Source: Lachnospiraceae bacterium (lineage in GTDB: Bacteria > Bacillota > Clostridia > Lachnospirales > Lachnospiraceae). Taken from it: DNA of 64,000 nt. Where the stretch lies: the NCBI GenBank assembly GCA_024695145.1, contig JAILIS010000033.1, positions 1-64,000 of the forward strand, in the 5' to 3' direction. A program made the translations under genes and the position numbers. Below, one piece after another: positions 33,055 through 54,030 of this stretch. The notes beneath the pieces were generated by a model. That model saw only the letters and a program-made list of their open reading frames with translations, did no database searches and was not told where the DNA came from. Every line of letters starts with the position of its first letter. Within the stretch, counting starts at the first letter, position 1.

Positions 33055-33900
33055 ATGTTTATGTCAAAGCTCAGGATCACGATAATAATAATAGCATCCA
33101 TTGCAACCGTTGTCTGTGCCGTTATGCTCATACGCACGACAATGCAGTACAAGGCTGCCGACAATGAATACAGCAGTCTCGAGCAGTATGCAAAGGTCGG
33201 CGGTGAGGATCCTTCATCCGGGACGGAATCATCTGAAACGGAAGAGGTGAAGGAGCAGGCAGTCGAGGAGACTGTGGAGGAAGAGGAGAAGGTCCTGACC
33301 CGTAACTACAACAGGGCCGATTTTCCCGATATAGCAGTTGATCACGAGGCGCTCAAGAAGATAAACGGAAGTTATGTCTGCTGGCTCTATGCCCCCGGTG
33401 CCCAGATCAACCATCCTGTTGTACAGGGTACCGATAACGAGTTCTATCTGCATCACACATTTGAGATGCAGAAGAATATCGCCGGATGCGTGTTCATGGA
33501 TTATGAAGTGGATCCGATGCTCACAAGCTGGAACACGTTTTTCTATGGACACAACATGAAGAACGGCTCAATGTTCGGGCACCTCAAGAATTATATCAAT
33601 GACAAGTCGGTGTACGACAAGGAAAAATACATCTATGTTTTCCGTCCCGAGGGCATTTACAGATATGAGATTTTCTCGTTTTATCTTGACCCGACGGATT
33701 CTAAGATGTACTATACTTGCGATACATTCAGAGAATACAGGGCTTATCTGCGGGAGGCCACGAAGAAGTCCGTACGCGAATGCGAGGCCAGACCGGACCC
33801 GGATCTTAATATCGTGACACTCGTCACCTGTTCGGGAAGCGGATCCAACAAACAGAGATTTTTCGTTCATGCTCAGTTCAAGGATTACTATTTATTTTGA
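33055..33900 (+). CDS. srtB: Class B sortase
   Basis: A 281-residue membrane-anchored transpeptidase. One N-terminal membrane helix (ITIIIIASIATVVCAVMLI) is followed by an acidic linker (about 50-80, rich in Glu) and the sortase domain. The catalytic residues are His166 (YGHNMKNGSMFG), Cys259 (TLVTC) and Arg268 (KQRFF); the long region between His and Cys marks class B. Sortases join a sorting-signal Thr to cell wall or to another pilin-like protein. The nearest likely substrate is the giant adhesin two genes downstream. An EAL-domain gene follows 9 bases later. Confidence 0.9.
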   Translation: MFMSKLRITIIIIASIATVVCAVMLIRTTMQYKAADNEYSSLEQYAKVGGEDPSSGTESSETEEVKEQAVEETVEEEEKVLTRNYNRADFPDIAVDHEALKKINGSYVCWLYAPGAQINHPVVQGTDNEFYLHHTFEMQKNIAGCVFMDYEVDPMLTSWNTFFYGHNMKNGSMFGHLKNYINDKSVYDKEKYIYVFRPEGIYRYEIFSFYLDPTDSKMYYTCDTFREYRAYLREATKKSVRECEARPDPDLNIVTLVTCSGSGSNKQRFFVHAQFKDYYLF

Positions 33901-33909
33901 AGGTAGAAT

Positions 33910-35592
33910 ATGCGTTTAGCACATGCACGCCATAAAACATTAATACTGAGATCATGCATATTGATGGGATTTTTTCTCATCGTTCTCAATGCCATGATAT
34001 CCGTTAAGTACAGCAATGTGATGTTTTCGATAGGGAACGCGCAGCTGCCGGTCACCAGCCTTAACGGGTGTATTCAGGTCATTATCAGCCTCATATGCAT
34101 CATCATGGTACTGACCGATGCGAAGAAAGGCCTTGTATGGTCATCTATCGTTCTGGGCATATCGGTGCTTGGTGCTGTAAGAGCGATGATCGTGGCCCGT
34201 AACCTTATGCCCGCTCCGGGTGTTTTCAATACCGCTATCTTTTTGATATCGATGTATCTTATCTCGCGTCAGATACAGTACAGTGACAGGATGGCCGTCA
34301 CCGACACGGTGACAGGCCTCAATAACAGATACGGTTTTGATCATGATATCCGCAGCAAGAAATGGATGAATGAAAAGGGCAGTATAGTTTTCATACATCT
34401 GGACGGCTTCTGGCCGGTCAACGCCAATCTCGGCCGCAGATACGGCGATGAACTGCTTCGTATTGTTGCAAGCAGGATCAAAACTGCACTAGGAGAGAAA
34501 AACGGCGAGGCATACAAGATCGAGGGAGCCGAGTACGCACTGATCCTTCCCGCAGAAGTTGATCATGATGCACTTGTTCGCGAGATGATCAAATCCGTCG
34601 AGGAAACTATCACCCTCAACAAGGACGGTGTTCCTTCGAACTGTTATTTAAGCGCGTTTGCCGGTATTGCTGATATAGCGGATCCTTCCGCAGATGCCGA
34701 TACGATAATGAAGCGTGCCGATGTGGCCATGAACTACGCCATGAAGTCCGGCAATATCAAGTACTGTCTGTTTAATGACGAGATGAACGAGTCCCTTGCC
34801 CGTCAGGTTCACATTGAACTCCTTGTAAAGGACAGCCTTCGCAACGATTGGTTCTACCTTGTTTACCAGCCCCAGTATACGATAGCCGACAAGCGCCTGC
34901 GCGGTTTTGAGACTCTTATCAGGATGAACGCGCCCGGAGAAGAGAAGATCCCGCCTTCGGAGTTCATCTCGATTGCAGAGATGTCGGACCTTGTGCTTGA
35001 TATTGATAAATTCGTTCTGCACCGTACAATGACGGAATTCCGTGAGATTTGTTATTCATCGGGCAATACTATCACCGTTGCCGTTAATGTATCGGCTAAG
35101 AGTGTCGCACGTGCAGGGTTTGCCGATAAGGTACTCGGGCTTTTGAAAGAGACGGAGTTCCCGGCGGAGTGTCTCGAGATCGAGATAACCGAATATTCGT
35201 TTGTTGAAGAAGGTAACCATACTCTCGAAAACATCAAGAAACTTCGTGATAATCAGATCATGATCGCACTTGATGATTTCGGCACAGGCTACACATCCCT
35301 TGAACAGCTGATGAAACTGCCTGTCAACCTTGTGAAGATAGACAAATCACTCATAGATAACCTTGTCCGCAACGAGATGAACATTGACTTCGTCAAGTCT
35401 GTCATCTATATGGGTCATTTGATGGATGCCGAGGTCATTGCGGAGGGTGTTGAGCACGACAATCAGGTGGACTGCCTTAAAGAACTCGACTGTGATTTTA
35501 TCCAGGGCTTTATCTGGGGCAAACCGATGGAGTACGACGAGGCCTGCGATCTTGCCAACACAATATACGACAAACTTCCCCGTTATCATTGA
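33910..35592 (+). CDS. Membrane c-di-GMP phosphodiesterase (degenerate GGDEF + EAL)
   Basis: A 560-residue protein. The N-terminal region (about 12-125) has four or five membrane segments. A GGDEF-fold domain (about 130-290) carries EGAEY at 205-209 in place of GGDEF, so it is probably not a cyclase. The EAL domain (about 300-555) keeps the expected metal and catalytic residues: Glu334 in ETLIR, EIEITE, Asp455-Asp456 in DDFG, Lys476, Glu512 and QGFIWG, so it should hydrolyse c-di-GMP to pGpG. It is transcribed with srtB and lies just before the giant adhesin gene, which suggests local c-di-GMP control of surface attachment. Confidence 0.88.
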   Translation: MRLAHARHKTLILRSCILMGFFLIVLNAMISVKYSNVMFSIGNAQLPVTSLNGCIQVIISLICIIMVLTDAKKGLVWSSIVLGISVLGAVRAMIVARNLMPAPGVFNTAIFLISMYLISRQIQYSDRMAVTDTVTGLNNRYGFDHDIRSKKWMNEKGSIVFIHLDGFWPVNANLGRRYGDELLRIVASRIKTALGEKNGEAYKIEGAEYALILPAEVDHDALVREMIKSVEETITLNKDGVPSNCYLSAFAGIADIADPSADADTIMKRADVAMNYAMKSGNIKYCLFNDEMNESLARQVHIELLVKDSLRNDWFYLVYQPQYTIADKRLRGFETLIRMNAPGEEKIPPSEFISIAEMSDLVLDIDKFVLHRTMTEFREICYSSGNTITVAVNVSAKSVARAGFADKVLGLLKETEFPAECLEIEITEYSFVEEGNHTLENIKKLRDNQIMIALDDFGTGYTSLEQLMKLPVNLVKIDKSLIDNLVRNEMNIDFVKSVIYMGHLMDAEVIAEGVEHDNQVDCLKELDCDFIQGFIWGKPMEYDEACDLANTIYDKLPRYH

Positions 35593-35630
35593 AAACAGGG
35601 CTTATCCCGTATATCGAAAATCAGTCGTTT

Positions 35631-35666
35631 AGCAAAGTTGCACAGAAATGAGCGTGCAACTTTGTT
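35631..35666 (+). terminator. Terminator-like hairpin after the EAL gene
   Basis: AGCAAAGTTGCAC (35631-35643) pairs with GTGCAACTTTGTT (35654-35666), a 12-13-bp stem. The downstream T-run (TTTTTTT) is about 25 bases further on, so termination strength is uncertain. The rest of 35593-35818 is the giant gene's leader, with no convincing -35/-10 pair; GAAGGAGAG precedes its ATG. Confidence 0.55.
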
Positions 35667-35818
35667 CGTTATTTAGAACAATTTTTTTGTGAAATTTACT
35701 CATGCGTGAACCTTTTTTTGCCGATAAAAAGTCCTTATATTTGAACGGGATTGGGTAAACTATGTCCATATCCCGTACTCTTATATATCAACCCCTATAG
35801 GATAGAAGGAGAGAAACA

Positions 35819-38800
35819 ATGAAGAGAAGGAACTGGCTTAAAACCACGATCGCGATGTTAACACTCATCGCAACGGTACTTGAGACCGGCTTTACGTCGG
35901 TATCTACCCTGGCAGCCGAGATTACTACCGAAGACGGTATCGTTGTCAACAACGACGAGATCAGCGGTGATAATCAAAACACAGGTGATGACCTTCAGAT
36001 AGAAGTGTCACATGATGAACCGCAGGAGAATTTCGAAGACAGCACCGAAGTGTTCTCAGACGAATCTTCGGCTGATCGGAATTCGTTCAACGAGAGCTCA
36101 TATGAGGAAGGCTCTCCCGAAGACGGAATCGTTGAAGACGGATTCAACGACGGTGAAGTCGTCGAAGGCGAAGAGCTCGCTGAAGAGAATGTTGAAGGCG
36201 AAGCTGCCGAAGAGACCTTCGAGGAAGCCGAAGAGCTCAAGGAAGGCGTACTCGATCTTTCCGACAACGGCATATCCGGTTCAAACTATGACGAGATCTC
36301 GGTATATGTGAACACCGAAAATCTCGCCAAGAGAGACAAGTTCCGTATCGAATTCACGGGACCTGCAAGCTCTTCATACAACCCCGTCATTAATGACGAA
36401 CTTGACAAGACAAACGGCGGCAGATACGACTTCGAAGGACTCGAAGGCGGTGATTTTACCGTACGTGCAACCTCCTCTGAAAATGTTTCTATCTCCTATA
36501 TATACAATGAAGAAGGATATCCCACGATCGTTCTTGAGAGCGCTGAAGTTGAGAAGATCCTTGAGAAGAAGACCCTTACATCCGTAGCGGATGAAGAGAT
36601 CCAGGCTGTCACCGGTCAGGGATACGAAAGCATCACGGTTGACTTTAATACCGAGGAACTTTCCGACAAGGCAGCATTCAAGCTTGTCGTTGAGAGTGAT
36701 GCAAATGCGACCGTAGACGGATATGATGCAAGATCAGGTATCACGGGCCTTGATAAGAACACACAGTTTCTTACGATCGAAAACCTTGAAGAAGAGAGCT
36801 TTACCGCTTATGTAATTACGGATAATGACGAAGTCAAGATCAGCACGATCGCTGACATTGACAGCATCGAAGACGGCCGCGTCACATTTACCGTCGACAA
36901 CGTCAATACAAAGCGCGTTTACGAATACGAAGATGATAAGGTAAAAGTTACGGCAACACTCGAGAAAGCCGATGCGGTTCCCGATGATGCCTATTTTGGC
37001 GTTGAGCTTCTTCCCGAGCAGATGACGGAAGAGTACCTTGACGTACTGAATCAGGACAAGGGCGAAGATGAAGTGCCCGCAACCATAGAGAATACATTAC
37101 TTTATGATATAGGATTCTATACGGATGATTCCAAGAGCGAAGAGATAGAGCCCGAAGAAGGTTCCGTAAAGGTTTCCATAGAGTTTAAGAAAGAACAGCT
37201 TTCAGAAGATATCGGAGCAGCCGAACCCGAAGATATCACAGTCACCCATATAGTTGAAGAAGGTGCAAACGTTACGACCGAAACCGTGGATGCAGACACA
37301 TCTGTTGACGGAGAAACGGTTGAATTCTCAACCGAGAATTTCTCCAAATATGCTATTCAGGGCAACGGAACAGTTAAGTTCGAGCCCGGTACAGCCAGAG
37401 ATTTCAAGACGGCTCTCGGAAACAACGTTAACTATGGTATGGTAGCAAACTCGATCACCATGGTCGGCCACAGTGAGACAAACTTTGCAACGAAGACCCT
37501 TAACGGTAATGTTGCAATGAACTCATGCAGAAACAACGGGGGTGGCACGGGCTACACATTTATAGCGGATTATACCGGAAGTGAGTTCAAACTGACCGGC
37601 AACAACAATGCCGGCAACGTGGTAATATACACGACTCCCGAAGCCAAGGCCAAGTTTAATTCCGATCAGGAATCAAGCGGGACCCGTGTTGATACGACGA
37701 GCTATACCAAGAAACAGATAGAAGACAAAATAGATGATCTTTTAACAGAAGCCACGACTAATTCAGACGCGATCGCTGCAGAAACAAATTCTTATAATTT
37801 CAGCGAAAACGGCCTTCTTGCAAAGATCAAGACCAATAAAGATCCTAATAATTCCGAGAATAAATACACACTTGACCTGACGTCGTTTGGTGAAGGAACG
37901 TACTACTTTAACTTTGACAACGAAAAATACGGCACACTTTGGGCAAATGATACGTCAGGCATGATCATCAAGATCAATGGCAATCAGACTGTTGTTTTCA
38001 ACATACCTGATACAAGTATTTCCCTTAAACAGAATTATAAGCTGAACATTGACGGGCAGGAAAAGTCACCCAGCGGTGATAACTTTGCCATAAGTGAGCA
38101 CCTTATCTTCAATATGCCAAATGCTACAACGGTCAATTTCGACGGCGCTATTGACGGTGTTTTCCTGTGCCCTAAAGCTGATGCGTATGTAAATACGACA
38201 AGCGGCGGATGGCTTATAGCCAACAATATACCCAAGGTCGGCGGTCAGGAATGGCACTGCACATGGCATGATATGCCCGAGACCGAAACAGAAGAGAAGG
38301 AATATGAATTCAAGGTAACCAAGAAGTTTGAAGCTCCCGAAGGAGTCAACTGGCCTGCTGAAGGATTCACATTTACTCTCGAGCCCTATTCGAGCGACAA
38401 AGATAAAGGAAACACATGGAATCCCAACCCTCCCATGCCGGATAATCAGGAAAAGGTTGAGATAACCATACATCAGGGCAGTGATCCGGCATCCAATACC
38501 GGTTCATTTGGGAAGATCTCATTTGATGCGCTGACGATTTACAATGAAGGAAAAAAGCTTGGTCAGGTTTCTGATCATTTTGCGGGTGTTACAGGTGTTG
38601 TAGACAAGTATTACATGGTCTACATGTACACGATCAGGGAAAAGATCCCTGAAGGTGCACAGCCGTATGCTGATGAAAACGGAAATGTCGAGAAGTTCCA
38701 TGATCATATTGAAAATGTTGACAGCGTTAAGTATTACATCAAAGACGGTGTTCTTTATGATGCAGAGCCATGGTCGCTGAAACTGTGGGTAAATGCCGCC

Positions 38801-41800
38801 AAGATCAGATATGGCAATACCGACTCATACATACTGAGCTTCGGTTCGGGTGACTGCCATCCCAAACAGGCCTGGGAAGCAAGCTGTACTCCCGAGAATA
38901 CTCATCCGATCACATTTACCAACAAGTACGATAAGAAACCGATCAGCGAGCCTTTGATCATCGAAGGTGAGAAGCTGGTCAACGGCAGCGCGGTAAATGT
39001 TCCGGATGGAAAGTTCAAATTTAATCTTTCCACATATACCAAGAACGACATATGGAATTCCCCGCAGGGTGCATTCGCAAATGTTCCGAATACAGGCAAT
39101 CATTTTGAGTTCCCTGAGATAGAGCTTAAATTCTCTCAGGCTACTTCGTGTTATGATGCCAACGGCGTACAGCTTACGGACAGCAAAGATTTCGAGTCGA
39201 GAGGGAAGACGGCTTACTTCTATTTCAAGATAGACGAGTCCAACGACTGTGCTCCATATGCTTTTGATAAAGCTGTTTATGTTGTCAAGGTTAAACTGAC
39301 CAAGAACGGTACCGGATTTGACAAGGAGATCAAGTACTTCAGATTTGATGATCCGAGCAAGGTGAACTGCAAGACAAATCCTCAGCAGGATATAGTCAAT
39401 GAGGAACAAGGCATAACGCTTGCGGATTCGATATCATTTGACAATACCTATACTGCTACCGGTTCAACAAAGCTTTACGGACATAAGAAGATCGAGAATC
39501 GTAAGTTCAAAGAAGGTGATACGTTTACCTTTACGCTCACTCCAAAGGAAGTAAACGGAGTCATAGATAAGCATAATGCCGCCCAGACGATCGTTATCGA
39601 ACCTAAGGCATCAGATAATTATGATTATGATTTTGAGTTTGACGAGCTGACATATACCTATGCGGATGCAGGCAGGACATATACATATACTCTTGCCGAG
39701 ACGCAGGGTAATGACAATACACTGACATATTCGACACAGACATATGATGTAAATGTCAGCGTAACTGATGACGGAAACGGCTCAACGCTTACAGTTACAC
39801 CTGATAAAGCGACGCAGGCCGCCAGAGCAAACTTTGTCAATACATACGGTGCCAGCGGAAAGATACAGTTTGGTGCGCATAAGAAATATGTGACCGGATC
39901 GAAGCTTGCACAGACCGAAACATTCTCATTCACACTCGCAGGTGACGGCATAGAGTCTGAAACAAAGAGTGTTACCGGTGAGAACACTGTTATGTTCTCC
40001 GAGATCAGTTATGAGAACATAAGTAAGATCGGCACATATCATTACACGATCAATGAGGTGCTGCCTGCAGGTGCTACGGCAGACAATAACTATACCGTAA
40101 ACGGTATCGTATATGATAACCGTACATACAACATTACGGTCGTGGTTTCCGATAACGAGTCGGGCGAGCTTCAGACAAGCGTTACCGGTTCGTATGACAA
40201 CGGTGATGCTGCCGAAAATGTTAAGATACCTGAATTTGTTAATGATTACACAGTAAATGAGACATCAATACGCCTCGGCGGCAATAAGGAGCTTCACGGA
40301 CGCGATCTTGAAAGGGGTGAGTTCACATTCACACTTGCAGCAGCCGATACAGCCACATCAAATGCGGTTACTGCAGGTACTGTTGTGCTGCCCGAGTCCA
40401 GATCAGTTAAGAACGGACAGCCTGAAGATAAGATACAGGATAAGAACGCATTCAAGTTTGATGAGATAAAGTTCACAGCTGCAGGCATTTACAAGTTCCT
40501 TATTAAAGAAACAGCCGGTAATGAGGCTGATATGGAGTATTCCAATGCGGAATACACCGTAACTGTAACTGTCAAGGATGACGGTAATGGAAACCTTAAT
40601 GCAACAAGTGACAAGACGGATTCCGAGGTTAAGTTTATCAACACCAAGAACGGTAACGGAGAGATCACGCTGTATGCGAAGAAGGTTCTTACCGGAAGAA
40701 AGCTGCAGGCGGATCAGTTCACATTTGATCTTAAGGACAGCGCGGGCAATACTATTGACACCAAGACAAATGACGCATCAGGTTCTGTCACATTTAATAA
40801 GCTTACATTCCGCAACCACGCACAGGGTCTTGATCTTAATAATACGGGAGATAAAGCTGAATTCACTTATACAATAAGCGAGCGCAAGCCTGATCCCGAG
40901 ATCAAGGGATATTCGTATGATACGCATACCGAGACAGTAACCGTAACGGTTACTCTCAAGGCTGACGGTTCACTGGAAGTTACATCCGACAAGGCCGGAC
41001 TCAACAGCCCCGCTGTATTTAACAATACATATACGGCCAAAGGTTCGGTTACCTTTGACGGAACAAAACAGATTACCGGCAGAAAGTACGAAGAAGAAGA
41101 TAAGGACAAGTTCTTCGCGGATCTGTACTATAATGGTGAAAAGAAGCAGAGCGTAAATATCACCAAGGAAACGAGCCTCTTTGGTGATAAGGGTGGCGCG
41201 TTTGAGTTTAAGCCGATAGAATTCACACAGGACGACCTTAAGGTTCCCGGTCAGGAGAACGAATACTATACCAGCATTACGAGAGAGTATACGATCAAAG
41301 AGTCCGGTGAGGCAGAAGGTGTTCAGTTCGATGATACCGTATATAAGGTAGTCGTTACCGTGACCGATCCGGGAACCGGCGAACTGAATGTTCAGAAAGA
41401 GTATTCGTATAACAATAAGACCGTTGAAAAGCCTTCATTTATCAACAAATATACCGCTAACGGTTCGGCATCGATAGTTGCGAAGAAGGAACTTTCCGGC
41501 ACAGAACTTAAGGATAAGATGTTCAAGTTTGAACTTCGTGATTCTGCGGGTTCTGTTCTTGACACCCAGTCAAATGATGACGGCGGTTCGGTGATCTTCA
41601 ACAAGAACGGAAATGAGATCAAGGCTTTACAGTACACACAGGAAGATATAGATAAAGAGTTTATATATACTCTGAAAGAGAAGATCGAAGGCAAGCAGGG
41701 ATATGTATATGATGAAAGAACATATACTGTAAAGATCACACCTGTTGCCGATCCCGATGATAAGACAAAGATCAAGGCAGTTCCCAAATACTATAAAGAG

Positions 41801-44800
41801 GATGGTACTCCGGTTGCCGAAGCAAATGTAATATTTGAGAATACATACAATGCAACAGGAGAGGTTGAACTGTACGCCTACAAGAAACTGATAGGCAAGG
41901 ATCTTGCCGCGGGTAAGTTCACGTTTACGCTGTATGATGAGGCCGAAACCCGTGTCTCGCAGGCAAGCAATGTTGAGGCAAAGGCCGGCGAAGATGCAAA
42001 GGCAACGTTCCCTGTCATCGAGTACAAGCAGGATGATCTTAATGCTACTAAGAGTCACAAGGTTGATGACAATACTTATGCCAAGTATTACTACATCAAA
42101 GAGGATATACCTGAAGGTGCCACTGCAGACAATAACTATACCGTAGACGGCATCACATACGATCCCGGTGTATACAACGTTGTTGTCACTCTTGAAGATA
42201 AGGGCAACGGTGTTATCGAAACAGACTGGTATGCATACAAGACAGGAACTGTTTACGAGAAGCCTTCGCTCTGGGATAAGATCGTCGAATTCGTGACCGG
42301 TAAGGGTGCGAACAAGAACGCTGCTTTTGAGAATAGGTACGAGGCAGAAGGTGCTATCGATCTTAGCGCCAAGAAGACCTTGTCCGGAAAAGAACTCAAA
42401 GCAGGTGATTTTGAATTCACTCTTACAGGAAAGGGCGAGGATGGTAAGAAGTATACCGATACGAAGTCAAATGGTGCTGACGGCATTGCAAAGTTTAACA
42501 GGATCGTCTATACGAAGCCCGGAACATATGAGTACAAGATAAAAGAATTAATACCTGATGATGCCGAGGAAGAAAACGGTATATACGTAAAGAACGGCGT
42601 CAAATATGACGATGGTGAATATACTGTTACCGTGACCGTAACTGATCTTGAAAACGGAAAACTTCAGGTTTCGGCATCCATCAACGGCAGTGCAGCTACA
42701 ACATCTGCCGAAGTTACGGATCCTGACAGCGGCAAGACGATACAGCTTTGCACTCCGGATCCCGCAGGCTTTATAAACACATATTCGGTTAAGCCTGTAA
42801 GCGTTACCCCGGGCGGTGTCAAGACACTTACCGGACGTAAGCTCAAGGATGCCGAGTTCACCTTCAATATGGTGAGCAAGGATGGCAACCCCAAGACTTA
42901 CAACGAAAGCGTCACCAACAAAGGCAAGGAGTTCACTTTCCCTGTCATCGAGTTTACAGGCGATGATATGAAGGACGGTGACTACTATGCATCCGAGAAG
43001 ACATTTGAATATACCGTGACCGAGACTGCAGGCAGTCTTAAGGGTATTACATATGCAACAACGAAATTTGATGTTGTTATCACGGTCAAGAACAATAACG
43101 GTGAGCTTTCGGCAGAGATCACAAGCAACGGACAGAAGGCTGCTGCCGACAAGATCGCTGAGTTTGTAAATACTTATGATGCAGACGGATCGACAACGTT
43201 CAAAGTTCACAAGACGGTTACAGGAACAAACGATCCCGACAAGGAATTCAGCTTCGTACTCATCGAGGAGGACGGAACTGAGCATACCGCAACAGCCAAG
43301 GCCGGCCAGACAGTACCTATCGCGCAATTTGAATATGATCTCGATGATCTGGATGAGCATGCTGACGGAACATACAAAGACTTTAAATATACCGTAAAAG
43401 AGGTCGAGCCCAAAGATCCGGACGGATACACTTACTCAAAGGATGTCTATGATGCGGTAGTTACCGTAACGGATATGGAAGACGGTACGTTTGATATCAA
43501 ACGTGTCATCAAGAAGAATGGTGAGGTTGTTGCTGATGACCCCATGGGATTTGACTTCGTCAATGAGTACAAGGCCAAAGGCGATACCGAGATAGAAGGT
43601 ACGAAGGATCTTGTAGGCAGTGAACTTAAGGACGGGGATTTCGAGTTTGTTCTTTCAAAGAAGGGTGAGGACGGAACATACAGTCCGGTTGATACAAAGG
43701 CTAATAAAAACGGTAAATTCTCGTACAAGCTTGATTATACCCAGGAAGATATCGGTAAAACATATTACTACAGGGTTAACGAAGTTATTCCTGATGATTG
43801 GAAAGAGAAGGGCATAGATTACGACAAGTCCGTATATGATATAACCGTTACCGTTGACGACAACAAAGACGGAACACTCAAGGTGACGAAAGATATCAGG
43901 AAGGGCAGCGCGGCTGCTACATCGTGTGATTTTGTCAATCCTGTGATCGATCCCGGCTCGGCGACATTTACAGCCAAGAAGACTCTCACAGGCAAGGCAC
44001 TTGAATCCGATACGTTCACATTTGTTCTCGAACAGAACGGTGAGGAACTGCAGAAAGTTCAAAACAAGGGTGAAAAGGTTACTTTCGAGCCCATCCCTTA
44101 TGAGTTTAAGGATGCAGGTGAAAACGGTGAGGGTAAAGTATATACCTACACGATCCGCGAGCTTGGAAGAAGAGAACTTGGCGGGGAAGAAGACGACATC
44201 ACATATGATACAAGGCAGTACACTGCAGAGGTTACTGTCAAGGTGGTCGACAACAAAGTTGACGCTCAGACGGTTTATAAGCTGAACGGTGAAGTCGTAT
44301 CCGAGATCAAGTTTGAGAACAAATATGAGTCATCGGTGGATGTGCCTCTTGGCGGACACAAGCATCTTCAGGGATTTGCGGGAGATATTCCGTCGCTTGG
44401 CAAGTACTCATACTCATTTGTGCTCAAAGATTCGACAGGTGCTGAAGTTGAGACGGTTTCGGTAACGCCCGAGAAGGCTGACGAGCCGGTTGAGTACAAG
44501 TTTACTGATCTGCACTTTGATCAGGATGATTACCAGGATTCTGCAGCAACTGACCATACATTCACATATACGGTCAAGGAAGTGGAGCCTGTTATAGAAG
44601 ATGAAAAGGCACCTAATGTTACATATGCGACAAATGAATATGATGTAGTGATCAAGCTTTCATATGACGCAAGCGGAAAGCTTCAGGCTACATCGAGTAC
44701 AAAGCAGGGTGTTGCGCTTAATGAACTTGATTTTACAAACGTATACGCTGCAGAAGGTGATATAACACTCAAAGGTATCAAGACCATAACCGGTAAGGAA

Positions 44801-47800
44801 CTTGAGAACGGTGCATATACATTCACTCTTACCGGAGAAGGTCAGGATCAGGAGATCCAGAACAAAGGAAATGAGTTCACATTTGATCCGATCCACTATG
44901 AATCAAAGGATATAGGAGAGCATACGTACACCATCAAGGAAACTGCAGCAACTGACAATTCCGTGATCGATACGACCGAGTATAAGGTTATCGTAAACGT
45001 TAAAGAAGCTACGGGTGGAGTTCTTGATGTAACGAAGGTTGTCAAGAAGATCGACAAGGACGGAAAAGAAACCGAGCTCGGTCCCGAAGAGGCGATCACA
45101 TTTGAGAATACTTTCAAGGCTTACGGAGAACATCCTGTTGAAGTTAAGAAGATAATGCACAACAGGCCTCTTAAGGATGGAGAGTTCACATTCAGACTGA
45201 AGGACGAGAACGGCAAGACTCTTGAAGTCAAGAACCAGGCGGCTCCTCTTGTTAAGGGATCCGATCCGGTAGCAGAGTCAACAGTACAGTTTGAGACACT
45301 CAAGTTTACACAGGAAGACCTTAAGGGTCCCGACAAGAAGAGTTATCTGCCTGAGATCCAGAAGTACTATACGGTAGAAGAGGTTTACGAATCCAGAAAG
45401 GGTTATGTATACGACAGAACGGTTTATGTCCTTGAACTGACTGTAAAACCGACAGATAAGCAGATAACGGCAGGACAGTATGAGGGCGACGAGCATGTCG
45501 GAGATTATGACCTCGAAGTGACCGAGAAGATCGTCAAAAAGAGCGGTGTTTCGACAGACAATAAGGAGAAGGGATTCTTCGAAAAACTGTTTGCCGGACT
45601 TATCAGCAGCGATGATAATGCAGCCAAAGGTGGTATCGTGTTTGAAAACACCTATGATGCGGAATGCATTGCTGATCCTCCGGTACTGTCCAAGGTTATA
45701 ATGGGCAGGACTATAGACCGCGGCATGTTCGAGTTCCATATTCACGGTGATGAGGGACTGCCGAGCATGAATGAGAGCGTGTATGACAGAGATGTATCTA
45801 ACGGATATAAGGTATCCGGCGGATTTGCTTCCAATCCGGGTGAGATCTCGGTTGACGATCTTAAGTTCAAGATCACAGACTTACTCTACTATGCAACCGA
45901 CGAAGAGCTTGATGCTTACAATAATGGCGGAAACCTGGAGCACGAGTTCGTATATACTGCAAAAGAAAACAAAGATACATCGGTAGAGGGTGTTACCAAT
46001 ACTAAAGCGGAATTTGTTCTGAAATTTAAAGTTATTGATAAAGGAACGGGAGTACTTGAGACTGATCCTCTTCTTCCTTCCGATCCCCGCGCGGTAGCAG
46101 ATCCTTCACTGGCTATGAAGTGGGAACAGACGAGCAAGAACGCACTTACCGATGAGCAGTATGACAACGTATTCCTGAACATCTACAATATGGAAGGATC
46201 TGTAGAGATCAGGGGTATCAAGAAGATGGAAGGTCGCGAACTTACAGAGAAGGATGTATTTGAGTTCACGATCAAAGATGACAAGACAGGCGAAGAAGTT
46301 ACAGTAAAGAGCACCAATGATGCTTACGGTGTTCCGAGCGAGGTAGTATTTAACGGTGATAATGTACCGTTCCTGAATTACAGCGAAGGCTTCTTCCCTG
46401 AAGGATATGAAGATGCAAGAGGCAGAAGCGGTGAGCTGCATGATATCAGTCCGGATAAAGATGTCAGGACTGCAGAGTTTACCTACACGATTTCAGAGAA
46501 GTACGATAAAGAGGCGCTTGACGAAAACGGTGTTGACAAGAATACCGGAGTAAAATATGACCAGGCTTCCTATAGGGTTTATGTAACGGTCAGCAAAGAA
46601 GAGGCTCCTTTGAACGGCAAGGGATGGCTTGACGCCAAGGTTACAAAGTCTGAGAAGATCGTGTCCGACAATAATAAGGTACGATTCGGAATCGCAGACG
46701 GTAACCACTTTGAGTTCGAGAACAGATTCAAGGCAACCGGAGAACTTCAGATCGACGGTATCAAGAGCCTTAAGTATCTTGACGGAAGTGAGCCTGCCTC
46801 AATCGACTCCATGAAGGGACAGTATGAGTTTGCACTCTACAGGTATGAGGATGAAGATGCAAGATCCAGACAGGATTCAAAGGGTATGCTCATCGATGTT
46901 CAGACTACAGGAGACAACGGTGAATTCACACTGACAGAACCTAAAGGATATACGCAGGAGATCCTCAAGGAAGATGACGGAAACTACAATACAACAGACA
47001 CCAAGAAACTTCTTTATAAGATAGTTGAGACAAAACCTTCAACAGGCAAAGTAAATTCTGAAGGCAAGATCGAGGCTAACGGTGTTACTTATGACGATAC
47101 AGAGTATCTCGTGGATGTTTACGTGAAGTATAACGGTACCGGTAAGCTCGATGTGACAAGGACAGTCACGAACAAGAAGACGGGCGAAGTGATCGCTTCG
47201 GAAGTTCCGGTCAAGGATAAAGTCACGGTCGGCTTCGAAAATACTGTTAAGAAGTTCACAAGCATCGGAGGTGTGAAGTACTGGAACGACGGAGAGAAGG
47301 ATCCGGCTAAGAGGCCTGATGTCCATGTAAACCTTTACTCCAGAACAGCCAGCGGTGTTGTACGTAAGATCAATACATACACAATAAAGGCTCCCGACAC
47401 TGAATATTACTTCGAATTTGACAGTGAGGGTAACAGACTTGCCACAACCGACAGTGCCGGAAATACTATAACCTATGAGGTAGAAGAGGAGCCCATAGAA
47501 GGCTATGATTGCCGCCAGGTTGGCTTTGACTTCTACAATACAAAGGGCAGAGTTCTGATCAGTAAGATCGATGCCAATACGAGAGAACCTCTCTCGGGTG
47601 CTACTCTTGCCATTTATGACGGCACAAAAGAGATCGAAAGATGGATAAGCGATCCTTTCGCACATCGTGTTGAGGCCAGCCTTACAGCGGGCAGGACATA
47701 TACGCTCAGAGAGATAACTGCTCCCGAAGGGTATGCAACAGCTGCTGATATGACGTTCACAGCTCCTGCGGACGGAAAGAATATTACAGTAACAATGTCT

Positions 47801-48811
47801 GATCCTCCGATAATCGGTTCAGTCAGACTGACGAAGCGGGATGCGACAACCCGTGAGGCGCTTGCAGGTGCGGAATTCGCACTTTACACGGATGCGGGTG
47901 CACGTATCTACGCAACAGGTAATGTAGGCAGCTACAGAGCTACCAGCCTGACGAGCAACGGTATATTCATAACCGATGCAACCGGCAGCCTTACGATCAC
48001 CGATCTGCCTTACGGCACATACTACTTCGTGGAGACAAAAGCTCCCGACGGATACGCTTTATCTGCAGAGCGCTTAGGCTTCACGATACTTAGAAACGGA
48101 GAACTTGTTGAAGTAACATACCTTAACGAAAAGGCACTTGGTTCTGTAAGATTGCGCAAGGTTAACGAGAACGGAACCAGAAGTCTTGCCGGAGCGGTAT
48201 TCGAACTGTACTCGAGGACACCGAGAACGATAGGTCAGGCGGCAACGTCAACCATCTTCACGGATGCATACTTCAGATACGGAACATACCGTACCAATTC
48301 AGCCGGAGAACTCTATGTCGGAGATCTTCCTTGGGATGACTACTTCTTCGTAGAGGTGGATGCACCTACAGGTTATGGCGTGAACAGGGATGTTAACGGT
48401 GATGATCTTGTATACACCTTCACAATTGACAGATATACGTCAAACAGGGTGATAGATATAGGATACGTATATAATACGCCGGAGACACCTCCTCCGCCGC
48501 CGTCAACAACACCTACGCCGCCGCCGACGACTACGCTGACACCTACACCGCCTCCGACAACTACTACAACGACGCCGACTCCGAGCGGAGTGCTTGGCGC
48601 AAGAGTTGACAGGATTGAGAAGGGTGGAGTTGTTAAGGGCGTACTCGGTGTACGTGCCGCACCCAGTAAGGGTGTACTCGGTGTAAGAAGCGGCCCTGTA
48701 ACGGGTGATGCAAGCAACATTATCCTTTGGCTCCTGCTCCTGTGTGCATGCGTGGCTACAATAGTGGCAACGATCGTAACCGGGAAGAAGAAAAAGGTAA
48801 CTAAGCAGTAA
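35819..48811 (+). CDS. Giant sortase-anchored surface adhesin with tandem isopeptide domains
   Basis: A 4330-residue surface protein. A signal peptide (about 1-33) is followed by an acidic Glu/Ser-rich segment (about 34-150), a beta-rich head, and a choice-of-anchor A-like region (about 522-815). From about residue 825 to 3810 it repeats about 20 FctA/Spy0128-type domains of 125-180 residues, starting near 825, 1040, 1211, 1343, 1478, 1611, 1739, 1879, 2010, 2175, 2322, 2454, 2584, 2711, 2837, 2977, 3099, 3279, 3457 and 3637. Each has a Lys in an xKKxLxG strand, a Glu in YTIxE, and an FxNxY end, the Lys-Glu-Asn pattern of self-forming isopeptide bonds. Next come a Cna-B domain (about 3811) and three SpaA-like domains (about 3908, 3998, 4106), a Pro/Thr stalk (about 4220-4250), three GVLGxR motifs, the sorting signal GPVTGD (about 4292), a hydrophobic helix and a KKKK tail. 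A rod-like adhesin is inferred. Confidence 0.9.
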   Translation: MKRRNWLKTTIAMLTLIATVLETGFTSVSTLAAEITTEDGIVVNNDEISGDNQNTGDDLQIEVSHDEPQENFEDSTEVFSDESSADRNSFNESSYEEGSPEDGIVEDGFNDGEVVEGEELAEENVEGEAAEETFEEAEELKEGVLDLSDNGISGSNYDEISVYVNTENLAKRDKFRIEFTGPASSSYNPVINDELDKTNGGRYDFEGLEGGDFTVRATSSENVSISYIYNEEGYPTIVLESAEVEKILEKKTLTSVADEEIQAVTGQGYESITVDFNTEELSDKAAFKLVVESDANATVDGYDARSGITGLDKNTQFLTIENLEEESFTAYVITDNDEVKISTIADIDSIEDGRVTFTVDNVNTKRVYEYEDDKVKVTATLEKADAVPDDAYFGVELLPEQMTEEYLDVLNQDKGEDEVPATIENTLLYDIGFYTDDSKSEEIEPEEGSVKVSIEFKKEQLSEDIGAAEPEDITVTHIVEEGANVTTETVDADTSVDGETVEFSTENFSKYAIQGNGTVKFEPGTARDFKTALGNNVNYGMVANSITMVGHSETNFATKTLNGNVAMNSCRNNGGGTGYTFIADYTGSEFKLTGNNNAGNVVIYTTPEAKAKFNSDQESSGTRVDTTSYTKKQIEDKIDDLLTEATTNSDAIAAETNSYNFSENGLLAKIKTNKDPNNSENKYTLDLTSFGEGTYYFNFDNEKYGTLWANDTSGMIIKINGNQTVVFNIPDTSISLKQNYKLNIDGQEKSPSGDNFAISEHLIFNMPNATTVNFDGAIDGVFLCPKADAYVNTTSGGWLIANNIPKVGGQEWHCTWHDMPETETEEKEYEFKVTKKFEAPEGVNWPAEGFTFTLEPYSSDKDKGNTWNPNPPMPDNQEKVEITIHQGSDPASNTGSFGKISFDALTIYNEGKKLGQVSDHFAGVTGVVDKYYMVYMYTIREKIPEGAQPYADENGNVEKFHDHIENVDSVKYYIKDGVLYDAEPWSLKLWVNAAKIRYGNTDSYILSFGSGDCHPKQAWEASCTPENTHPITFTNKYDKKPISEPLIIEGEKLVNGSAVNVPDGKFKFNLSTYTKNDIWNSPQGAFANVPNTGNHFEFPEIELKFSQATSCYDANGVQLTDSKDFESRGKTAYFYFKIDESNDCAPYAFDKAVYVVKVKLTKNGTGFDKEIKYFRFDDPSKVNCKTNPQQDIVNEEQGITLADSISFDNTYTATGSTKLYGHKKIENRKFKEGDTFTFTLTPKEVNGVIDKHNAAQTIVIEPKASDNYDYDFEFDELTYTYADAGRTYTYTLAETQGNDNTLTYSTQTYDVNVSVTDDGNGSTLTVTPDKATQAARANFVNTYGASGKIQFGAHKKYVTGSKLAQTETFSFTLAGDGIESETKSVTGENTVMFSEISYENISKIGTYHYTINEVLPAGATADNNYTVNGIVYDNRTYNITVVVSDNESGELQTSVTGSYDNGDAAENVKIPEFVNDYTVNETSIRLGGNKELHGRDLERGEFTFTLAAADTATSNAVTAGTVVLPESRSVKNGQPEDKIQDKNAFKFDEIKFTAAGIYKFLIKETAGNEADMEYSNAEYTVTVTVKDDGNGNLNATSDKTDSEVKFINTKNGNGEITLYAKKVLTGRKLQADQFTFDLKDSAGNTIDTKTNDASGSVTFNKLTFRNHAQGLDLNNTGDKAEFTYTISERKPDPEIKGYSYDTHTETVTVTVTLKADGSLEVTSDKAGLNSPAVFNNTYTAKGSVTFDGTKQITGRKYEEEDKDKFFADLYYNGEKKQSVNITKETSLFGDKGGAFEFKPIEFTQDDLKVPGQENEYYTSITREYTIKESGEAEGVQFDDTVYKVVVTVTDPGTGELNVQKEYSYNNKTVEKPSFINKYTANGSASIVAKKELSGTELKDKMFKFELRDSAGSVLDTQSNDDGGSVIFNKNGNEIKALQYTQEDIDKEFIYTLKEKIEGKQGYVYDERTYTVKITPVADPDDKTKIKAVPKYYKEDGTPVAEANVIFENTYNATGEVELYAYKKLIGKDLAAGKFTFTLYDEAETRVSQASNVEAKAGEDAKATFPVIEYKQDDLNATKSHKVDDNTYAKYYYIKEDIPEGATADNNYTVDGITYDPGVYNVVVTLEDKGNGVIETDWYAYKTGTVYEKPSLWDKIVEFVTGKGANKNAAFENRYEAEGAIDLSAKKTLSGKELKAGDFEFTLTGKGEDGKKYTDTKSNGADGIAKFNRIVYTKPGTYEYKIKELIPDDAEEENGIYVKNGVKYDDGEYTVTVTVTDLENGKLQVSASINGSAATTSAEVTDPDSGKTIQLCTPDPAGFINTYSVKPVSVTPGGVKTLTGRKLKDAEFTFNMVSKDGNPKTYNESVTNKGKEFTFPVIEFTGDDMKDGDYYASEKTFEYTVTETAGSLKGITYATTKFDVVITVKNNNGELSAEITSNGQKAAADKIAEFVNTYDADGSTTFKVHKTVTGTNDPDKEFSFVLIEEDGTEHTATAKAGQTVPIAQFEYDLDDLDEHADGTYKDFKYTVKEVEPKDPDGYTYSKDVYDAVVTVTDMEDGTFDIKRVIKKNGEVVADDPMGFDFVNEYKAKGDTEIEGTKDLVGSELKDGDFEFVLSKKGEDGTYSPVDTKANKNGKFSYKLDYTQEDIGKTYYYRVNEVIPDDWKEKGIDYDKSVYDITVTVDDNKDGTLKVTKDIRKGSAAATSCDFVNPVIDPGSATFTAKKTLTGKALESDTFTFVLEQNGEELQKVQNKGEKVTFEPIPYEFKDAGENGEGKVYTYTIRELGRRELGGEEDDITYDTRQYTAEVTVKVVDNKVDAQTVYKLNGEVVSEIKFENKYESSVDVPLGGHKHLQGFAGDIPSLGKYSYSFVLKDSTGAEVETVSVTPEKADEPVEYKFTDLHFDQDDYQDSAATDHTFTYTVKEVEPVIEDEKAPNVTYATNEYDVVIKLSYDASGKLQATSSTKQGVALNELDFTNVYAAEGDITLKGIKTITGKELENGAYTFTLTGEGQDQEIQNKGNEFTFDPIHYESKDIGEHTYTIKETAATDNSVIDTTEYKVIVNVKEATGGVLDVTKVVKKIDKDGKETELGPEEAITFENTFKAYGEHPVEVKKIMHNRPLKDGEFTFRLKDENGKTLEVKNQAAPLVKGSDPVAESTVQFETLKFTQEDLKGPDKKSYLPEIQKYYTVEEVYESRKGYVYDRTVYVLELTVKPTDKQITAGQYEGDEHVGDYDLEVTEKIVKKSGVSTDNKEKGFFEKLFAGLISSDDNAAKGGIVFENTYDAECIADPPVLSKVIMGRTIDRGMFEFHIHGDEGLPSMNESVYDRDVSNGYKVSGGFASNPGEISVDDLKFKITDLLYYATDEELDAYNNGGNLEHEFVYTAKENKDTSVEGVTNTKAEFVLKFKVIDKGTGVLETDPLLPSDPRAVADPSLAMKWEQTSKNALTDEQYDNVFLNIYNMEGSVEIRGIKKMEGRELTEKDVFEFTIKDDKTGEEVTVKSTNDAYGVPSEVVFNGDNVPFLNYSEGFFPEGYEDARGRSGELHDISPDKDVRTAEFTYTISEKYDKEALDENGVDKNTGVKYDQASYRVYVTVSKEEAPLNGKGWLDAKVTKSEKIVSDNNKVRFGIADGNHFEFENRFKATGELQIDGIKSLKYLDGSEPASIDSMKGQYEFALYRYEDEDARSRQDSKGMLIDVQTTGDNGEFTLTEPKGYTQEILKEDDGNYNTTDTKKLLYKIVETKPSTGKVNSEGKIEANGVTYDDTEYLVDVYVKYNGTGKLDVTRTVTNKKTGEVIASEVPVKDKVTVGFENTVKKFTSIGGVKYWNDGEKDPAKRPDVHVNLYSRTASGVVRKINTYTIKAPDTEYYFEFDSEGNRLATTDSAGNTITYEVEEEPIEGYDCRQVGFDFYNTKGRVLISKIDANTREPLSGATLAIYDGTKEIERWISDPFAHRVEASLTAGRTYTLREITAPEGYATAADMTFTAPADGKNITVTMSDPPIIGSVRLTKRDATTREALAGAEFALYTDAGARIYATGNVGSYRATSLTSNGIFITDATGSLTITDLPYGTYYFVETKAPDGYALSAERLGFTILRNGELVEVTYLNEKALGSVRLRKVNENGTRSLAGAVFELYSRTPRTIGQAATSTIFTDAYFRYGTYRTNSAGELYVGDLPWDDYFFVEVDAPTGYGVNRDVNGDDLVYTFTIDRYTSNRVIDIGYVYNTPETPPPPPSTTPTPPPTTTLTPTPPPTTTTTTPTPSGVLGARVDRIEKGGVVKGVLGVRAAPSKGVLGVRSGPVTGDASNIILWLLLLCACVATIVATIVTGKKKKVTKQ
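48482..48588 (+). repeat. Pro/Thr-rich stalk-coding repeat
   Basis: ACA/CCT/CCG-rich codons encode alternating PPPP, TPTPPP and TTTTTTP blocks just before the cell-wall sorting region of the giant adhesin. Such low-complexity stalks span the cell wall and vary in length between strains. Confidence 0.75.
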
Positions 48812-51166: not shown

Positions 51167-51192
51167 TTCGACACACGGAACTCAAGTGAAAC

Positions 51193-51538
51193 TGGACCTG
51201 AGGGGAGTTGAACCCCTGTCCGAAAGCCCGTCCGTTAAGACTTCTCCCATCACAGTCATTTGCAAATGATTCCCGAAACTGCAAGGCAAATGACAAACCG
51301 GCAGCTCCGGTAGCTTCATATTTCTTCCGCCCGCTCAAAGCTTTGCGGGTGAAGTTCCCTACCTTGTTGATGCCGTATCCGCAAGCAGTAGGCTACCTGC
51401 GGGCGACACGCAGCACTTAGGCTGCGAACGCTAACTTATTGTCTGCGTTTAATTTTAAGTTTCTCATTTGATAACGCGGTATGAGGCCGCGGATGGCTAT
51501 CCTAAGTTCAAGACCCCCGTCGAAACCGGTACAGGCCC
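51193..51538 (-). ncRNA. ssrA: Transfer-messenger RNA
   Basis: On the minus strand the RNA starts GGGCCTGTACCGGTTTCGAC and ends GGTTCAACTCCCCTCAGGTCCA; GGGCCTG pairs with CAGGTCC as the acceptor stem, and GGTTCAA is the T loop. The 3' CCA is not encoded and must be added. The tag frame (51446-51417) begins at the resume codon GCA and reads Ala-Asp-Asn-Lys-Leu-Ala-Phe-Ala-Ala then TAA. Length is about 346 bases. It rescues stalled ribosomes with SmpB, encoded next door. No promoter is visible between smpB and ssrA, so it may be cut from a joint transcript by RNase P. Confidence 0.93.
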
Positions 51539-52929: not shown

Positions 52930-54030
52930 ATGAAACAAAAGTACGCGATAGTATTCACAATAATTCTGTTATCGATCATGACGCTGCCCATAGTGGCAGC
53001 TGTTGTGATCTCTGGGAAGAAAAACAGCTCCGATATCCCGGCAAATGATGCGGTGATGAACAATACAGATGTCACTGTATCCGAAGCCGAACCTATGCCG
53101 GAGCCGGATCCTGAGCCCGTGTCCGGGGCCGAAGCGGAAACAGAAACAGAAACCGAACCTGAGTCTGAACCTGTACCGATGCCCCTTGTTCCTGAAAAGA
53201 TCCCACTTTCTAAATACGAACCTTATCTTGAGATCAACCCTTATGTATCGGGCTGGCTTGAGATCGACGGTTCTAAGATTGATGACGCTGTAGTATATAC
53301 TCCTGGCAGTCAGAATTATTTTCTTCATCGAGCACTTGACGGTAGCCCGCTTGAACGCGGTACGTTTTTTATAGCCATTAACTGGCAGGATGGATTTAAC
53401 AATACTCTTATATACGGGCATAACATGAAGGACGGGAGCGGATTCGGCAGCCTGCCCAGATATGCGGACAAAAAATACGGGATGGATCATTCGGTCATCC
53501 GGTTTGATACTCTCTATGATGAGAAAGAGTATGAATTGTTTGCGGTGTTCTATTCTCAGATAGATGAGGAGGAACTTGAAACGGAAGAGGACAGGGCAGA
53601 AGCCGACAGGATGATCGCCGAAAAAAGTCTCGATGAAAAGCGCGAGCAACAACAGGAGCAGCAACAGCAGGAGCAGCAACAACAGGAGCAGCAACAACAG
53701 GAGCAGCCGCCTGAGGCGGAAGAACCTGTCGATCTCATCACGGAAGAGGAACTTACGGTCAAAGATCTCAATCTTCACAGAGATTTCGGTGATGAAGATA
53801 TATACAGAAGCGAAAAGGACGAGGATAACGGACGGTTCAGGTACTATTACTACAATGATCTCTCCGACAGGGATGATTTTGAATATTTTGTAGATAATGT
53901 CAGACAGAGAGCACTCTATGACACGGGAGAGGATGTTTCGTGGGGCGATGAACTGCTGACACTTTCCACCTGCAGTTACCATGTCAGGAACGGGAGACTG
54001 GTCGTTGTGGCTGTACATCATCCCGATTAG
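52930..54030 (+). CDS. srtB2: Class B sortase with Gln/Glu-rich insert
   Basis: A 366-residue membrane-anchored sortase. The N-terminal helix (AIVFTIILLSIMTLPIVAAVVIS) is followed by a Glu/Pro-rich linker (about 50-85). Catalytic residues are His164 (YGHNMKDGSGFG), Cys348 (TLSTC) and Arg356 (NGRLVVVAV). The His-to-Cys distance is 184 residues, against 93 in the other sortase of this window, because about 90 residues are inserted, including a QQQEQ repeat at about residues 238-260. The order of motifs is intact, so it is probably active. It shares no close neighbour with a sorting signal. Confidence 0.86.
   Translation: MKQKYAIVFTIILLSIMTLPIVAAVVISGKKNSSDIPANDAVMNNTDVTVSEAEPMPEPDPEPVSGAEAETETETEPESEPVPMPLVPEKIPLSKYEPYLEINPYVSGWLEIDGSKIDDAVVYTPGSQNYFLHRALDGSPLERGTFFIAINWQDGFNNTLIYGHNMKDGSGFGSLPRYADKKYGMDHSVIRFDTLYDEKEYELFAVFYSQIDEEELETEEDRAEADRMIAEKSLDEKREQQQEQQQQEQQQQEQQQQEQPPEAEEPVDLITEEELTVKDLNLHRDFGDEDIYRSEKDEDNGRFRYYYYNDLSDRDDFEYFVDNVRQRALYDTGEDVSWGDELLTLSTCSYHVRNGRLVVVAVHHPD
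53643..53708 (+). repeat. 15-bp tandem repeat coding (QQQEQ)n within the sortase
   Basis: GAGCAGCAACAACAG-type 15-base units recur about four times, each coding five residues, so copy-number change keeps the frame. A strain-variable length is likely. Confidence 0.85.

Follow-up and report, generated by a model that had tools for sequence, protein, structure and literature searches.

In Streptococcus pyogenes, a class B sortase, Spy0129, is encoded beside its FctA substrate, the isopeptide-bonded Spy0128 (PMC3019223). In Clostridioides difficile, the SrtB motif is [SP]PxTG (PMC4371152) and cyclic di-GMP (c-di-GMP) raises two sortase substrates (PMC6200980); CD2831 and CD3246 lie there under c-di-GMP riboswitches. 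Fibrillar adhesins, including one of 7,651 residues in Mobiluncus mulieris, combine a signal peptide, a head, a cross-linkable stalk and a wall anchor (PMC8286594, PMC10619420), and in Streptomyces a GGDEF-containing protein, RmdB, is tied to the RsiG/sigma-WhiG anti-sigma/sigma pair and binds sigma-WhiG via its GGDEF domain (PMC13232838). Here, we describe a locus with likenesses to all of them, built around the gene of a 4,330-residue protein (the giant) in a Lachnospiraceae bacterium. It lies within a 64,000-nucleotide stretch of contig JAILIS010000033.1 (assembly GCA_024695145.1, positions 1 to 64,000), which we call the window.

Three open reading frames stand side by side in the window, encoding a class-B-type sortase (srtB), a GGDEF-EAL protein and the giant; tpiA and secG flank this block, and an S41 peptidase gene belongs to the same gene set. 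The original prediction had read the three as one surface module in which an EAL enzyme gives local c-di-GMP control of a sortase-anchored rod. Its close srtB-EAL pair is indeed present, with a gap of 9 bp, and the giant, placed within 230 bp of the EAL gene, starts 226 bp behind it. The EAL domain was correctly named (PF00563), but the protein carries GGDEF and EAL domains (PF00990 also matches), not EAL alone. We compared the locus across a genus sample of 37 genomes, in which the window's own srtB locus and 33 loci of relatives were retrieved and mapped (G, C and L numbers below are our handles for genomes, contigs and loci). We consider it probable, from sequence comparison, that the giant is an SrtB-anchored adhesin of about 20 repeats with a predicted adhesive head, served by its own predicted promoter of the extracytoplasmic function (ECF) sigma type rather than as a member of a srtB-EAL operon. 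SrtB, encoded two genes upstream, would link the giant to the cell wall via GPVTG. The giant would be transcribed separately from srtB-EAL, a linked ECF sigma factor would read the element TGAACCTTTTT-N13-GTC, and a small transmembrane protein would hold this factor back as an anti-sigma. The EAL gene, directly behind srtB in one clade only (clade A), is likely co-transcribed with it, and its product would bring c-di-GMP down each time the sortase is produced, most likely acting through the common pool or through protein partners and not as a dedicated switch for the giant. What is new here is the promoter/sigma link together with the clade-specific EAL gene behind the sortase; the locus itself is well conserved.

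The giant scored 714.6 bits against PF12892, with 19 FctA stretches, and three SpaA domains and one Cna_B domain were found as well. A twentieth FctA-like unit (residues 836-1062, bounds set by hand) matches the others in the Glu and Asn columns. The Lys, Glu and Asn at the bond positions are invariant in 17 of 17 aligned FctA repeats, and the Glu and Asn columns are kept in 20 of 20. The original prediction had also proposed predicting the structure of the repeats; in a structure comparison, the predicted fold matches FctB, PitB and Spy0128. Its description of a 13-kb gene with about 20 FctA-type domains, Cna-B/SpaA domains and a sorting signal holds; the repeats carry the Lys-Glu-Asn set, and the sorting signal reads GPVTGD, a hydrophobic stretch, KKKK. 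We infer from the sequence that isopeptide bonds form in every repeat and stiffen the rod. The protein also has the parts of a fibrillar adhesin, namely a secretion signal (by eye), a head (by predicted fold), a repeat stalk and a wall anchor, and the head is its predicted adhesive tip. The FctA repeats, the ice-binding-like head, the neighboring class-B-type sortase and the conserved sigma-type element set it apart from the Mobiluncus protein. A rival view, in which SrtB polymerises the giant as a pilin in the way that Spy0129 does with Spy0128, appears highly improbable. The two systems share a class-B-type sortase next to an FctA-domain, isopeptide-type substrate, but one 4,330-residue chain, with its head and some 20 repeats, is a long rod by itself and needs no polymerisation, whereas the FCT pilus is a polymer of small pilins; the motifs are EVPTG there and GPVTG here, and between tpiA and the S41 peptidase gene of the window no pilin gene was found.

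The region between the EAL gene and the giant argues for separate transcription. A terminator-like hairpin with a T-rich tail was found there in 8 of 9 adjacent loci tested. When the regions before 11 clade-A giants were aligned, TGAACCTTTTT, 13 free bases and GTC were fixed in all 11, and the element is exact before all 12 clade-A giants tested. Among 28 giants of the genus, it is exact in 14, within one mismatch in 20 and within two in 25, at positions -62 to -214, compared with a mean of 0.08 at two mismatches in 60 dinucleotide shuffles of the same upstream regions. This count leaves out G036 and G027a (no upstream sequence) as well as G017, G019a and G019b (start not resolved), for which a looser scan gave elements with 1, 2 and 1 mismatches, respectively. 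ECF promoters typically show AAC at -35, a run of T and a -10 region of the GTC type, and we predict that TGAACCTTTTT-N13-GTC is such a promoter for the giant. No element precedes srtB in the 13 clade-A loci, where the best matches have at least three mismatches.

Exact sites number 55 across the 37 genomes, whereas the reversed pattern occurs twice. The genes that follow the exact sites encode giants, CAP proteins, small membrane proteins whose ends resemble VPLAAAP, large coiled surface proteins and, in G028, a PilZ protein; 30 of the 55 loci were read, and about seven of these have another gene or no clear gene behind the site. The secreted CAP-like proteins are those of L096 (PF00188 confirmed) and of L098, L113, L114 and L122 (by eye). 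In two loci (L125:5577-9248 and L126:5519-9259), three exact copies fall within 4 kb; a small membrane protein and large coiled surface proteins are encoded after them, and neighboring genes resemble those of ribosomal proteins and EF-G. A further hairpin lies at the would-be 5' end of the giant mRNA. Hairpins of other sequence fold at a like place in clade A (mean z -2.2 in 12 loci, compared with -0.9 in 16 others), and RNAalifold on a MAFFT alignment gave the 5' hairpin no support; such a structure, differing in sequence between species, might protect a 13-kb message.

Table 1. Features of the srtB-EAL-giant locus (window positions) and the second sortase of the genome.
Feature	Position	Strand	Basis
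srtB, class-B-type sortase, 281 aa	33055..33900	+	PF04203, TIGR03064, alignment
GGDEF-EAL protein, 560 aa	33910..35592	+	PF00563, PF00990; 9 bp behind srtB
Terminator-like hairpin, 12-bp stem, T-rich tail, between EAL and giant	35632..35665	+	folding
Predicted ECF-sigma-type promoter, TGAACCTTTTT-N13-GTC	35707..35733	+	alignment, motif scan
Hairpin at would-be 5' end of giant mRNA	35745..35776	+	folding z-scores
Giant fibrillar adhesin, 4330 aa	35819..48811	+	open reading frame, domain profiles
Head domain, residues 516-835, predicted beta-solenoid of ice-binding-protein fold	37364..38323	+	predicted fold
Stalk, ~20 FctA/Spy0128-type repeats, residues 836-3811	38324..47251	+	profiles, alignment, fold; Lys/Glu/Asn positions
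One Cna_B and three SpaA domains	47270..48440 (end approximate)	+	domain profiles
Sorting signal GPVTGD, hydrophobic stretch, GKKKKVTKQ, stop	48692..48811	+	sequence
Second sortase of the genome	L134:6538-7368 (G000:C15)	n/a	TIGR03064 167.6 bits, class B

A srtB orthologue (E 2.2e-78 or better) was present in 34 of the 37 genomes. In clade A, srtB and the EAL gene lie on one strand with a gap of 1-36 nt in 13 of 13 genomes; since the pair recurs in 12 related genomes, at identities of 60-74% for EAL and 69-81% for srtB, it is more than chance. The giant is next to the pair in 12 of 13. Ten of these cases are direct, counting G033, where the contig ends just after the giant start, and G031, where the EAL end and the giant are on a second contig. 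In the other two, a convergent gene intervenes, prepilin-like (N_methyl) in L036 (6472-7497) and like-placed in L033. In L044 (G004, 99% complete), a secG-like gene follows srtB-EAL and no giant is found there; this genome has no sigma match, no exact element site and one weak FctA match somewhere. Other genes than those of the window precede srtB in L033, L034, L037 (a Na/alanine symporter and a response regulator), L042 and L043. Outside clade A, an adjacent EAL gene was found in none of the other 21 mapped loci, and in L045, L046 and L054 a distant EAL gene (25-28% identity) is found 5-6 kb past srtB. A giant or a fragment nevertheless stands next to srtB, on either side, in 15 of these 21 loci: behind it in L047 (with one gene between), L048, L049, L051 and L053, and before it in ten, of which L045, L059, L061 and L063 show only fragments of 92-318 aa. 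The giant-like sequence of L060:2-10725 (G023) is split into several separate open frames. No giant stands on either side of srtB in L050, L052 and L056, and L046, L054 and L065 are cut by contig ends or short. Among 80 named srtB loci, EAL was adjacent in five, all of clade A; 11 of the 80 (L185-L195) duplicate records of the genome sample, and the five are therefore not new cases. The remaining 69, many with short flanks, show no EAL gene directly beside srtB, the EAL gene of L263 being 2.3 kb off. Because EAL is adjacent only in clade A and giants persist without it, the pairing of sortase and giant looks old, and EAL looks peculiar to clade A. Thus, of the conserved order expected in related genomes, the sortase and its substrate are indeed neighbors in most of the genus, while the full srtB-EAL-giant order was found only in clade A.

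The GGDEF-EAL protein, whose N-terminal part is hydrophobic (by eye), scored 211.6 bits against PF00563 and 70.2 bits against PF00990. Its GGDEF signature, EGAEY, is degenerate and stays so in the orthologues, and the EAL residues E(TL), N, E, DD, K, E and Q, which we take to form the metal and substrate site, are invariant in 12-13 sequences. It also aligns to 4rnh (PDB title "motility regulator"), presumably MorA. Because the EAL catalytic residues are invariant and the GGDEF signature is degenerate, we predict a c-di-GMP phosphodiesterase.

A phosphodiesterase with conserved catalytic residues, a gene order shared by 12 of the 13 genomes of clade A and the effect of c-di-GMP on the C. difficile substrates would suit srtB, EAL and the giant being one operon-like unit in which EAL controls the giant locally. 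We nevertheless find such control unlikely, and a weaker reading than the promoter/sigma link, given the hairpin and the promoter-like element before the giant, the convergent gene in two loci, the 21 loci that lack an adjacent EAL gene (15 with a giant or fragment) and L044, where secG follows the pair. The window also lacks what marks CD2831 and CD3246, with which it shares a class B type of sortase, a motif not unlike [SP]PxTG and an association with c-di-GMP enzyme genes: no c-di-GMP riboswitch was detected in the window by cmscan at gathering thresholds, nor in 29000-52000 at E<=5, and a riboswitch upstream of the giant was thus rejected for the window. RF01051 occurs at 15 places in 13 of the 37 genomes, none before any mapped giant, and none was found in the window's own genome among 87 scored of 174 first-look candidates. 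RF01786 is covered by the window scan; it matched in no genome, controls included, so that a genome-wide absence does not follow. The local c-di-GMP control of the original prediction is therefore not borne out, and a c-di-GMP effect via a sigma factor or post-translationally is possible.

In seven clade-C genomes (L296, L297, L300-L304), a c-di-GMP-I riboswitch lies 79-226 bp behind srtB (for example, G018:C58:20071-20191). It was dropped as a second c-di-GMP link at srtB: in L062, the gene behind it encodes a Peripla_BP_6 protein (Pfam) and belongs to an ABC operon for branched-chain amino acids, whose uptake may thus be under c-di-GMP control. Of the seven, two more were read, L055 and L057, and their like-placed genes look similar.

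The second exact element of the window's own genome is divergent from an operon of four genes, encoding a GGDEF protein, an ECF sigma factor, a transmembrane protein and a transglutaminase lipoprotein (L127:860-4127, G000:C13). The divergent gene encodes a 146-aa membrane protein with VPLAAAP before a hydrophobic stretch; neither this protein nor the transmembrane protein could be placed convincingly in a family of Pfam or NCBIfam. The sigma factor, of 190 aa and encoded at G000:C13:26262-26831, matched PF07638, PF08281, PF04542 and TIGR02937 over cut-off, with sigma-70 regions 2 and 4 of ECF type. Its gene (E 1e-30 or better) was found in 29 of the 37 genomes, and a divergent element with at most two mismatches was found in 23 of 26 loci with room for it (L142, L149 and L164, at contig ends, are left out, and the 23 do not include the L154 site, which lies 356 nt from the GGDEF match). 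The sigma gene is within 2 kb of 13 of the 55 exact sites.

Several observations weigh against the promoter/sigma account. The tail of the window hairpin is imperfect (6 T in 12) and 9 of 200 shuffles fold as well; because the T run is weak and the fold only modestly special, read-through into the giant is possible, and in L034 the hairpin was not seen. The window's own genome has only two exact sites, and its two-mismatch hits, which were rejected, are mostly noise (36, compared with 19 for the control). ECF factors often autoregulate, and in 26 loci no site with at most two mismatches lies upstream on the sigma operon's own strand, the only same-strand hit, in L167, being downstream. Presence of the sigma gene and of exact sites showed no association across the 37 genomes (21 of 29 with the gene, 4 of 8 without; Fisher p 0.39). 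G016, G023 and G028, all incomplete assemblies, have exact sites and no sigma match, and in G003, which also lacks a sigma match, the site of the giant has 3 mismatches. The window's own genome holds another ECF-type sigma gene (C15), and no family hit backs the transmembrane protein as an anti-sigma factor. As to the anchoring step, the second sortase passes the class B cut-off and outscores SrtB, and the SrtB query gave four matches in its own genome, two of them among the matches listed.

The sigma operon also raises the question of whether c-di-GMP acts through the sigma factor, with the degenerate GGDEF protein, the GGDEF-EAL protein or both binding the factor or its transmembrane partner and so gating the regulon. 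The GGDEF gene directly precedes the sigma gene in all 28 visible loci of 29, and the PilZ gene behind an exact site in G028 fits as well. What speaks for this route is, however, gene order, whereas in Streptomyces the binding of RmdB to WhiG, which is not an ECF factor, was shown; EAL is at srtB in clade A only, and the signature of the sigma-operon GGDEF (NGNEF, SGNEF or GGNEF; NGNEF in the window's own genome) has Asn at its third position in 28 of 28 and departs from GG[DE]EF. Because of this signature and of differences from DgcZ at further positions, presumably catalytic ones, the protein is likely no diguanylate cyclase. We rate this route as possible and doubtful. The same holds for a fuller version, a tentative one, in which the catalytically dead GGDEF membrane protein, produced together with the sigma factor, would sense the nucleotide and free or hold that factor, and the clade-A EAL enzyme, produced together with the sortase, would reset the signal. 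The sigma factor would then switch on the adhesin gene as well as those for CAP, PilZ and small membrane proteins, linking anchoring capacity with the order to make the rod, and a GGDEF gate on the sigma factor would extend the Streptomyces c-di-GMP/sigma link to ECF factors of Firmicutes. In the open-licence PMC literature, we found no report of an ECF sigma-GGDEF operon, and nothing on point for c-di-GMP, sortase and sigma in rumen Lachnospiraceae or for the ECF promoter consensus.

SrtB matched PF04203 over cut-off (52.2 bits) and scored 152.7 bits against the class B model TIGR03064, whose curated cut-off is 153.75; because it falls 1 bit short, we call it class-B-type. His166, Cys259 and Arg268, which we take to be the catalytic residues of the sortase family, are invariant in 11 aligned sequences (its own included), and its closest structures are 15 PDB sequences, mostly named sortase B or C60B, including Spy0129 (3psq). 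The genome has two PF04203 sortases above cut-off, and the other one adjoins a receiver-like protein and a large secreted protein. It is conceivable, if rather unlikely, that this sortase anchors the giant and that the srtB neighborhood is historical. The full class B match of the second sortase strengthened this alternative and lowered our confidence in the SrtB account, and SrtB may have other substrates, since L044 retains its gene in the absence of a giant. A giant, whole or as a fragment, is nevertheless beside srtB in 12 of 13 clade-A loci and 15 of 21 others, on either side, and it is the only sensible GPxTGD carrier found in its own assembly. We infer that SrtB, rather than the second class B sortase, anchors the giant. 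A GPxTGD match at C13:54659 was rejected as a second substrate, being antisense to a gene. Across the genus, the C-terminus was visible in six FctA proteins; five terminate with GPVTGD or GPATGD, and the sixth (L171) with TPATAD.

With SrtB anchoring and the promoter/sigma link preferred, a plausible c-di-GMP story for the sortase-anchored rods of gut clostridia is replaced by a concrete one with testable parts: a defined promoter element, a defined sigma operon and the surface genes that follow the element in this genus of uncultured Lachnospiraceae. Should the sigma assignment prove true, it could help to learn when these bacteria display their very long stapled rods. The nearest named relatives are metagenome-assembled genomes of uncultured Lachnospiraceae, several from the rumen of sheep, goat and yak. 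Elsewhere in the window, a tmRNA gene with the tag ADNKLAFAA lies at 51190-51538 on the minus strand, and a 15-bp tandem repeat, AGCAACAACAGGAGC, runs for 4.2 copies with 95% matches at 53645-53707, within overlapping open reading frames.
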